A DNA stretch of 10,816 nt from a bacterium (lineage in GTDB: Bacteria; RBG-13-66-14): assembly GCA_035528375.1 (NCBI GenBank), contig DATKYS010000085.1, positions 1-10,816 of the forward strand, in the 5' to 3' direction. A model generated the notes under the pieces. That model saw only the letters and a program-made list of their open reading frames with translations, did not search any database and had not been told where the DNA came from. The first letter of the stretch is position 1; every line of letters begins with the position of its first letter. Made by a program: the position numbers and the translations under genes. Of the stretch, positions 3,126-6,006 are shown one piece after another.

Positions 3126-3410
3126 TCAGCGCGGAAGCTCGACCCCCTCCACCTCGCCCCCGGTTTTTTCGCAAAGCCTCTCAACGATCCGGCCGAGCAT
3201 TTCCCGGAGCGGCTCCAGGGCCGCCGGGTCAGCGACCTCGATCACCAGGGTCCGGCCCCGGAGCCCCTTGACGCGGGTCCGCCGCGCGAGGGACGGCCCG
3301 ACGATCTCCTCCCACACCAGGCGCAGCCGGCCCAGGCGCACCGCCTCCCGCATCCGTCTGGAGCCCAGGCTTCCCCCGATCAGCTCGCCGATGGGCCTCG
3401 GATCACCCAT
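3126..3410 (-). CDS. DUF721/DciA-like protein
   Basis: A 94-residue protein of the DUF721 family, whose studied member DciA loads or recruits the replicative helicase DnaB. The family pattern is clear: a basic helical N-terminus, W33-EEIVGPSLARRT (the conserved W..IVG..LA..T block, residues 33-45), then L50-RGRTLVIEVADPAALEPLR in which a beta strand is followed by a helix, and a final helix with VEGVELPR. It lacks the extra C-terminal regions of longer DciA proteins, so helicase-loader function is inferred, not shown. The start overlaps the preceding gene (TGATG), and GGGAG lies five bases upstream of the ATG at 3410; a GTG one codon earlier (3413) is an alternative. It is the last gene of the transporter operon, an unusual place for a replication factor. 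Confidence 0.8.
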   Translation of the reverse strand: MGDPRPIGELIGGSLGSRRMREAVRLGRLRLVWEEIVGPSLARRTRVKGLRGRTLVIEVADPAALEPLREMLGRIVERLCEKTGGEVEGVELPR

Positions 3411-4300
3411 CACGGCTCCCCGTCGGATTCGTCGCTGAAGACGTGCTTCTTGCCGCGCTTCAGAGCAATGGAGATGAAGAGAGCCGAACCGCCGAAGAGT
3501 ATAATCACGCCCACGGTGAACATGATCCAGGCCCCCGGAGTCATGTGCTGGGTCCGGTCAATGGTCGCCAACCCTTCTTCGACGGCCTCGTGGAGCCTGG
3601 GCGAGAGGTTTTCCCGGGCGAGTTTTTGCAGGAACGCGCGCCCCTCGTCGTAGCCGAAGGGAGCCAGGGCCCCGACGGCGGCGACGCGCACCCCGTCCTG
3701 GAGGCCGGCGTCGCCGGCCAGTTCGGCGAGCGTCTCGTAGGCCCAGTCGCCCTCGATGGTCCCGATGACGCCCACGGCGGCCTCGCGTGCTTCGAGGGCC
3801 AGCCGCCCGTCCAGCGCCAGGGAACGGTGAAACTCGGCCAGACGCTCGTCCACCATCAGGCCGACGACGAGCGCCGCCCGCTCCGCCCCGCCCTTTCCCC
3901 GGGACAGCTCCGCCAGGTACCCCGCGGTCCAGCCGCCGGGGTCGCCGTCCAGGGCCGCCTCGATCAGGGCGCAAGCCAGAGCCTGGGGCCGCTCCTCCCC
4001 GCCCGCGGCCTCCACGGTCACCCGCCCCAACAGGTCGGCGGCGGCGGCGCGCAGGCCGGGGTCCTCGGACACGTCGGCCACGATTGCGGCCAGCGTATCG
4101 GCGGAGTCCTCGAGGTCCGTCCCTTCCACCCCGAGCCGGGCGACGAGCTCCAGGCGCTCCGCGTGCCTGGCCGCCCGTTCCGGGGTCACGGTCACGGACT
4201 CCGGGCGGAGGGGACCGACGGTCGTCGTCGGCTCCCCGGTCCCCGCCGCGACCGACGAGACGAGGAGGATCAACGCGGTCGGGAGATTGAGCCTATTCAC
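3410..4300 (-). CDS. Exported, membrane-anchored alpha-helical (HEAT-like) repeat protein
   Basis: A 296-residue protein with a signal peptide (MNRLNLPTALILLVSSVAA, residues 1-19) and a short Pro/Thr linker. A long alpha-helical region follows (about 40-250) with repeated Ala/Leu helix pairs resembling HEAT or armadillo units, for example around 165-190 and 200-245. A single membrane helix (about 256-280) and a basic then acidic tail (KRGKKHVFSDESDGEP) complete it. The expected topology is a periplasmic repeat domain held by a C-terminal anchor. I know no specific function; such repeats usually bind other proteins. GTG at 4300 is preferred over GTG at 4309 because AAGGGGG lies about eight bases before it and the signal peptide then starts normally. 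It overlaps the transporter stop by 8 bases and the DUF721 start by 1-4 bases, so all three are translationally coupled. Confidence 0.68.
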   Translation of the reverse strand: MNRLNLPTALILLVSSVAAGTGEPTTTVGPLRPESVTVTPERAARHAERLELVARLGVEGTDLEDSADTLAAIVADVSEDPGLRAAAADLLGRVTVEAAGGEERPQALACALIEAALDGDPGGWTAGYLAELSRGKGGAERAALVVGLMVDERLAEFHRSLALDGRLALEAREAAVGVIGTIEGDWAYETLAELAGDAGLQDGVRVAAVGALAPFGYDEGRAFLQKLARENLSPRLHEAVEEGLATIDRTQHMTPGAWIMFTVGVIILFGGSALFISIALKRGKKHVFSDESDGEP

Positions 4301-5828
4301 CGGTCCCACCCCCTTGCTCGCCGGCCGGCGCCCGGTTATTGTCGGCGCGGATGCGCATGAAGACGAAGCTCAGCGCGAAGACCACCGCCACCACGCCCCA
4401 GCCTCCGGCGAAGAGCGCCCAGTCCGGGTAGCCGCCGTAAGGCTCGGTGATGGTCTTTACCAGGTCCATGCCGAAGGTGACGACCAGGATCGCCGGAGTG
4501 AAGTATTTGACGAGGAAGTCCCACCAGCGGCCTATCTTTATCTCGCTGTCCCGGTTGGCGTACTCCCGAAGCTTCCGCGCCCCGTAGAGCCAGCCCAGGA
4601 CAATGCACTCGAAGAGACCTCCCAGAATCAGGCCGAACTTGTTGATGAAGTTGTCCACGATGTCCAGCCAGTAAAGCCCGCCGTCGGTGGCGAACAGAAG
4701 CCCGAAGGCGAAGGCGATGACGCAGACCGTTATCAGTACGGGCGTGCGCTTGAGCCCCAGCTTGTTGACCCAGGCCTCCGACGTGGCCTCCACCAGGCTG
4801 AAGGCCGAGTCTATCCCCAGGGTCAGGAGCATGATGAAGAAGATGGCGGCGAAGAACCCGGGCCAGAAGGGGAGCTGGTTGAGAATCGTGGGGTAGACGG
4901 CGAAAACCAGGCCCGGCCCCGATTCCATCACCCCCGCCACGGTGTGGTGGCTCCCCACCGCCAGGAACCCCAGGGTGCTGAAGATGGTGACTCCCGCGAG
5001 GAAGCTGGTGGCGCAGTTGGAGAGGCTGATTATTATGGCGTTGTTGTTGATGTCCGACTTGCGCGGGAGAAAGCTGGCATAGGTAATCATCACGCCGAAG
5101 GCCAGTGACAGGCTGAAGAATATCTGTCCATAGGCCGCCAGCCAGACGCCGGGGTCCAGCAGCTTGCTCCAGTCGGGGTTGAGGAAGTAGTTGAGCCCGG
5201 CGCCGGCCCCCTCCAGCGTCGTCCCGCGGACGGCCAGAATCAACAAAAGCAGCCAGGGCAGCGGCACCGTCACCAGCACCACCTTCCCCACGCTCTTGGC
5301 CCCCTTGCGGATGGAGAAGTAGATGGCGACCCAGGTGAGGACGAGCCCGACCACCAGCGGCCAGTTCAACCCGCCCAGCTCCCCAGGCCCCGTGGACAGG
5401 TGCAGGAGCTTTTCGGTGAAGAAGGTCCCGGGGTCGTTCCCCCAGCCCAGGGAGAAGGACTGGAAGAGGTAGTTGAAACACCAGCTCATGATGACGGCGT
5501 AGTAGGCGGTGATGACGAAGCCGACCAGGACCATGAGCCAGCCCACCCACTCCGAGTTCTTGCGGGCCTTGAAGAAGGACAGCGGCGCACCGGAGGCCAT
5601 CTTGTGCCCCAGGCTGAACTCGAGAATCATCAGGGGTATACCGGCGGTCAGGAGGGCGACCAGATAGGGAATGAGGAAGGCCCCGCCGCCGTTCTCGTAG
5701 CAGACGAAGGGGAAGCGCCAGACGTTGCCGAGGCCCACCGCCGAACCGATGGCGGCCAGGATGAAGGCCGAGCGCCGGTTCCACTTCGCCGGCGGGCCGG
5801 ATTCCAGGAGCTTGGGCTTGTCGCTCAT
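4293..5828 (-). CDS. Sodium:neurotransmitter symporter (NSS/SNF) family transporter
   Basis: A 511-residue transporter of the LeuT fold with about 12 membrane helices, expected to import an amino acid or related solute with Na+. Helix 1 has the family signature IGSAVGLGNVWRFP, followed by ENGGGAFLIPY. Residues matching the LeuT Na+ sites are present (G28, A30, V31, N35 and S239, N271). Helix 8 has GIDSAF with D340/S341, as in serotonin transporters, where LeuT has Thr-Ser. R38 and D392 match the outer gate. G32, where monoamine transporters have Asp, suggests a substrate carrying its own carboxylate. Y55, Q235, S239, N271 and S275 reproduce the chloride site of animal members. The ATG at 5828 has AAAGGA seven bases upstream. 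It is first in a coupled operon, with a promoter at 5862-5890. The substrate cannot be named from sequence. Confidence 0.93.
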   Translation of the reverse strand: MSDKPKLLESGPPAKWNRRSAFILAAIGSAVGLGNVWRFPFVCYENGGGAFLIPYLVALLTAGIPLMILEFSLGHKMASGAPLSFFKARKNSEWVGWLMVLVGFVITAYYAVIMSWCFNYLFQSFSLGWGNDPGTFFTEKLLHLSTGPGELGGLNWPLVVGLVLTWVAIYFSIRKGAKSVGKVVLVTVPLPWLLLLILAVRGTTLEGAGAGLNYFLNPDWSKLLDPGVWLAAYGQIFFSLSLAFGVMITYASFLPRKSDINNNAIIISLSNCATSFLAGVTIFSTLGFLAVGSHHTVAGVMESGPGLVFAVYPTILNQLPFWPGFFAAIFFIMLLTLGIDSAFSLVEATSEAWVNKLGLKRTPVLITVCVIAFAFGLLFATDGGLYWLDIVDNFINKFGLILGGLFECIVLGWLYGARKLREYANRDSEIKIGRWWDFLVKYFTPAILVVTFGMDLVKTITEPYGGYPDWALFAGGWGVVAVVFALSFVFMRIRADNNRAPAGEQGGGTGE

Positions 5829-5939: not shown

Positions 5940-6006
5940 CGTAGGGGCGGGTCTCTTGACCCGCCCGCGGGCGACCTGAACGGCGCGCCGTCGGTCGGCC
6001 CCTACG
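5940..6006. repeat. Nested palindromic intergenic element
   Basis: The 67-base element is bounded by the inverted pair CGTAGGGGC (5940-5948) and GCCCCTACG (5998-6006). Inside are a perfect hairpin, GGGCGGGTC-TCTT-GACCCGCCC (5945-5966, sharing bases with the left arm), and a 12-base palindrome ACGGCGCGCCGT (5980-5991) flanked by near-complementary GGGCGACC and GGTCGGCCC. It carries no ORF. It looks like a REP- or MITE-type dispersed repeat, but copy number cannot be judged from this window. Confidence 0.6.

Follow-up and report, generated by a model that had tools for sequence, protein, structure and literature searches.

The chloride site of NSS (SLC6-type) transporters is taken always to hold one negative charge, provided either by a carboxylate or by Cl- (PMC10707687). 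In the cryo-EM structure of SIT1, Cl- is bound by the corresponding Tyr, Gln and two Ser residues (PMC11217458). Proteins of the LeuT, Tyt1 and MhsT type carry one acid in the pocket, at LeuT position 286 or 290; LeuT from Aquifex aeolicus has Glu290, and TuriSERT, Tyt1 and MhsT have Asp at 286. When this Asp is mutated to Asn (TuriSERT D262N, Tyt1 D259N, MhsT D263N) the transporters become Cl--dependent, and H+ antiport is diminished in Tyt1 D259N and MhsT D263N (PMC10707687). Animal transporters of the B0AT1 type are reported to be Cl--independent and in most cases have Asp at the equivalent position, and KAAT1 and CAATCH1 are weakly Cl--dependent in a substrate-specific manner (PMC8310414). 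In a review from 2021, all prokaryotic NSS proteins were taken as chloride-independent, and the negative charge was placed in a prokaryotic ancestor and considered lost in the animal proteins (PMC8310414).

Some bacterial members are two-part importers of the MetP/MetS type (NF033493), in which a small MetS peptide of some 30–60 residues is encoded directly adjoining the NSS gene. Among animal proteins, ACE2 and collectrin are single-span partners with a large extracellular domain, which stand beside the SLC6 transporters B0AT1 or SIT1.

Here we describe an NSS gene and its neighbours in a bacterial sequence of 10,816 nucleotides (contig DATKYS010000085.1, hereafter the window).

Chloride pocket and ion sites of the window transporter

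The window encodes an NSS-type Na+-coupled amino-acid transporter of 511 residues on the minus strand (4293–5828), exactly where the first-pass annotation had placed it. The open reading frame is intact, with no internal stop, and matches PF00209 (SNF) over its full length at 449 bits (cut-off 27). No second NSS copy that might serve as donor or paralogue was found in the 2.63-Mb genome assembly. The AF2 model (pLDDT 89.8) has the LeuT fold with 12 helices. It superimposes on human SERT with Z 48.8 and 1.9 Å over 480 residues at 35% identity, as compared with a Z of about 46–47 and 27–28% identity for LeuT; the predicted fold and the sequence are thus closer to human SERT than to LeuT. By sequence, the best relatives of solved structure are the animal transporters GlyT2 and TauT.

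The transporter was aligned with LeuT and human SERT, whose sequences had been checked against PDB chains. Five residues fall on the chloride ligands of SERT, and they are also identical to those of GlyT2 and TauT: Y55 in TM2 (codon at 5664–5666; SERT Y121, LeuT Y47), Q235 in TM6 (5124–5126; SERT Q332, LeuT Q250), S239 in TM6, which is also a Na1 ligand (5112–5114; SERT S336, LeuT T254), N271 at the chloride and Na1 sites (AAC, 5016–5018; SERT N368, LeuT N286) and S275 in TM7 (5004–5006; SERT S372, LeuT E290). LeuT reads Y/Q/T/N/E at these positions, and the window protein reads YQSNS, with no acid at either the 286 or the 290 site. The alignment that the first-pass annotation had called for thus bears out its claim of a complete animal-type chloride site in a pocket free of acidic residues. 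Its contrast with Glu290 is correct for LeuT itself, which has the acid where the window protein has S275, but does not extend to the closest relatives, whose acid is at position 271.

The Na1 and Na2 ligands are retained, as are the remaining residues of the ion sites, the substrate site and the gate. D340 and S341 in the GIDSAF motif align with the Asp-Ser pair at the Na2 site of SERT and with T354-S355 of LeuT; D340 (codon at 4809–4811) is the animal-type Na2 aspartate. The fold, the framework of the Na1 and S1 sites and the extracellular gate (R30-D404 in LeuT) are common to LeuT and the window protein, which differ in the Glu290 and Na2 Thr of LeuT. Gly32 (codon at 5733–5735) takes the place of the TM1 Asp of monoamine transporters (SERT Asp98). 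Together with the other S1 residues it argues for an amino-acid substrate, as the annotation had proposed. A neutral amino acid is the probable substrate. The window protein differs from animal SLC6 proteins in being prokaryotic, in Gly32 and in adjoining a MetS-type protein, and its use of Cl- is a prediction.

The adjoining HEAT-MetS protein

Directly after the transporter gene, and overlapping its stop codon with its own start, lies a gene for a HEAT-repeat protein with an N-terminal hydrophobic, signal-like helix and a C-terminal transmembrane segment (3410–4309, minus strand). Its C-terminal end is a fused segment of the MetS type of NSS small subunits (3455–3544, minus strand; NF033493), which the first-pass annotation had overlooked. 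The tail reached 31 bits within the HEAT protein, 34 bits when searched alone and 34.7 bits in a further run (cut-off 25). An HMM built from stand-alone MetS-like open reading frames, with the HEAT proteins left out, matched the tail at 47.8 bits. Hence the MetS-type segment directly adjoins the NSS gene as in the MetP/MetS systems, but it forms the tail of a putatively exported HEAT protein, not a short stand-alone single-span peptide.

Among 242 genomes, 15 of the 21 MetS matches were in short frames of 34–85 residues; the six in long frames were exactly those of six members of the window's family. All six matching family genomes have the fusion, in frames of 316–360 residues or, in the rearranged genome G001, of 168. 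The HEAT-MetS gene is followed by a DciA-like gene (3126–3413, minus strand; PF05258), and the order NSS, HEAT-MetS, DciA is kept at five related loci (L004–L006, L029 and L030). The transporter would work with this putatively exported HEAT-MetS protein, the grounds for the partnership being gene order and family membership. Foldseek searches with the HEAT model returned generic HEAT and alphaRep solenoids only, and therefore no specific function is assigned to the domain. The likeness to ACE2 and collectrin is one of analogy: the domains are unrelated, and neither common descent nor a complex is implied.

At six other loci (L039, L042, L074, L075, L083 and L085), several of them from Planctomycetota, a MetS-like helix is found on a C-terminal extension of the NSS protein itself. 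In G001, which belongs to the same genus as the window (locus L030), the first 28 codons of the NSS gene run on in frame into the end of the HEAT gene. The junction lies at a repeat matching in 14 of 15 bases, and most of both genes is lost. This assembly, 96% complete, yielded no further trace of the NSS gene; a real deletion is likelier than a misassembly. Elsewhere in the window, a REP-like palindrome, GGGCGGGTCTCTTGACCCGCCC, is located at 5945–5966; it has 47 copies in the genome at up to two mismatches, and the reversed control has none. Searches of the window for RNA families and tRNAs gave no hit.

Acid-free sites in other prokaryotes and the animal branch

The first-pass annotation implied that the site is rare among bacteria, an impression that the census does not sustain. 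Relatives were found in 153 of 339 genomes searched, and 148 prokaryotic NSS proteins, from the genome searches including earlier loci, were scored. An acid is present only at the 286 site (N271 of the window) in 75 of them, only at the 290 site (S275) in 47, and at both in none. This pattern gives a Fisher p of 4e-20, with sequences treated as independent and relatedness ignored, and agrees with the published view of a single negative charge (PMC10707687). The remaining 26 of the 148 have an acid at neither site, and 15 of these have the full Y-Q-S/T-N-S set, which rules out a site unique to the window among bacteria. Such acid-free proteins may already have been described in the earlier literature on the chloride site.

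The census was seeded from relatives of the window protein and is not an even sampling of prokaryotes; the frequencies are taken from it alone, since the sequences of a further, named sample had been picked for their similarity to the window. Acid-free sites in the named sample come from WOR-3, Stahlbacteria, Cloacimonadota, Omnitrophota, Bacillota, Desulfovibrio, Propionigenium, Dethiosulfatibacter and archaea. The cultured species Propionigenium maris (L069) and Dethiosulfatibacter aminovorans (L066) are among the bearers of acid-free NSS proteins. Three loci (L197, L214 and L225; WQDNS) have no acid at 286 or 290 and an Asp at LeuT position 254, possibly a third way of placing the charge. 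Among 228 prokaryotic NSS proteins, the animal-type Na2 Asp is common together with a 286 acid or an acid-free site, and Na2 Asp and a 290 acid coincide in 0 of 67 (relatedness ignored).

On a tree of 112 sequences, computed with both trait columns excluded, 22 changes among the three states were needed, the mean for shuffled states being 51.6. Counting starred branches only, the acid-free label must change at least 15 times. With FastTree and 233 sequences, 31 changes were needed. SERT, GlyT2 and TauT are nested in a starred group whose prokaryotic members are of mixed state; their exact placement is uncertain because the trees are quick ones and the animal branch is long.

The Asp-to-Asn replacement and predicted ion coupling

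The closest relative of the window transporter (L004; same genus, other species) is 93% identical to it and has Asp at position 271. The other two full-length family orthologues, L005 and L006, have Asp as well, and Ser275 is kept in all three. By parsimony the change is therefore one from Asp to Asn in the window lineage, and a recent one. The Asn which was introduced by mutation in TuriSERT, Tyt1 and MhsT would thus have arisen naturally here, from the Asp that these proteins share with the window's close relatives. Codons 271–272 read AAC TGC in the window and GAC GCG in L004; as four of the six bases differ, a single sequencing error cannot account for N271, and this explanation was discarded.

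The difference at 271 does not stand alone. TM2, TM6 and TM7, which hold the chloride ligands, account for 9 of the 14 substitutions assigned to the window lineage, compared with 5 of 111 in the family background (p 2e-7). The choice of helices obeys a functional rule, but it was made once the clustering was already apparent. The chloride-lining segments also show more synonymous differences (0.34 versus 0.14 of codons, p 1e-4), so that the clustering is no proof of selection and a strict scheme of point mutation and selection is not upheld. A recombined tract would explain the clustered changes as well as selection does. The candidate tract extends over TM6–TM7 (codons 233–282; 4983–5132, minus strand) and includes the replacement at 271. 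Within it the outgroups agree with L004 at 17 sites and with the window at 5, as against 13 and 23 elsewhere (p 0.003, post hoc). The window allele may accordingly be a mosaic, its TM6–TM7 segment with N271 having come from a chloride-type homologue and not from a selected point mutation. The raised synonymous divergence, the polarity of the tract and a clustering of window/L004 differences beyond permutation speak for such an origin. Against it, by-eye comparison with the nearest acid-free homologues gave no donor: those nearest outside the family are L136 and L137 (59% identical), whose tract sequences differ from that of the window. Moreover, divergence along the gene is uneven also in the control pair L005/L006. 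We regard the mosaic as a serious but somewhat doubtful possibility; it concerns only the origin of the switch and is compatible with chloride coupling.

As a whole, the data are best explained by a 12-helix NSS protein in which amino-acid uptake is powered by Na+ and, in contrast to its close relatives, by Cl- as well, and we consider this explanation probable. Na+/Cl- coupling is a well-supported prediction, based on the five ligands, the acid-free pocket, the animal-type Na2 site and the Cl- dependence of Asp-to-Asn mutants elsewhere. In the Asp-containing relatives, a fixed carboxylate near Na1 would be protonated on the return step, resulting in H+ antiport, the mechanism suggested for Tyt1 and MhsT. 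With Asp271 replaced by Asn, a bound chloride would have to supply the negative charge in the window protein, and Cl- would join uptake as in SERT, GAT and GlyT. The switch would be recent, and the further changes in TM2, TM6 and TM7 would have come with it, perhaps by way of a recombined TM6–TM7 tract. The adjacent protein would act as partner, its MetS-type helix being the form that the small subunit of bacterial NSS takes in this family, where it would carry an exported HEAT domain.

Sequence cannot settle chloride dependence, because weakly dependent members exist. The site might bind chloride while transport depends on it only weakly or conditionally, as in KAAT1 and CAATCH1, another group offsetting the lost carboxylate. 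Such SLC6 proteins are real, the chloride effect in KAAT1 varying with substrate and driving ion (PMC8310414), and Asp340, in the Na2 site, places another carboxylate close to where the ions bind. However, Asp340 is also present in the Cl--dependent SERT and GlyT2, and in L004–L006, which already have the Na1 Asp, so it was not gained as a replacement along with N271; we judge weak dependence unlikely. A still less favoured reading, that N271 reflects drift or damage in a decaying gene whose impaired product makes chloride coupling irrelevant, could point to the remnant of 28 codons in the congener G001. It appears very improbable for the window gene, in which the reading frame and the remaining functional residues are intact. 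Furthermore, N271 is paired with Cys272, a pair shared with SERT and with further acid-free sites of bacteria, and the codon differences from L004 are mostly synonymous (76, as compared with 34 that change an amino acid).

We tentatively put forward a broader proposal. Chloride coupling would not be an animal invention: prokaryotic NSS proteins would have switched repeatedly between a fixed carboxylate with H+ antiport and a bound chloride, the animal SLC6 proteins would branch inside a mixed group, and the window gene would represent a switch within a genus, its partner subunit now being an exported, receptor-like HEAT protein. The HEAT-MetS fusion offers a way into the small subunits of bacterial NSS transporters, which have been little studied. 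The window transporter and its counterpart in L004 constitute a natural experiment on the evolution of chloride dependence; if uptake assays confirm the prediction, the two proteins, 93% identical and differing in the Asp, would be a natural pair for the replacement of proton by chloride coupling.
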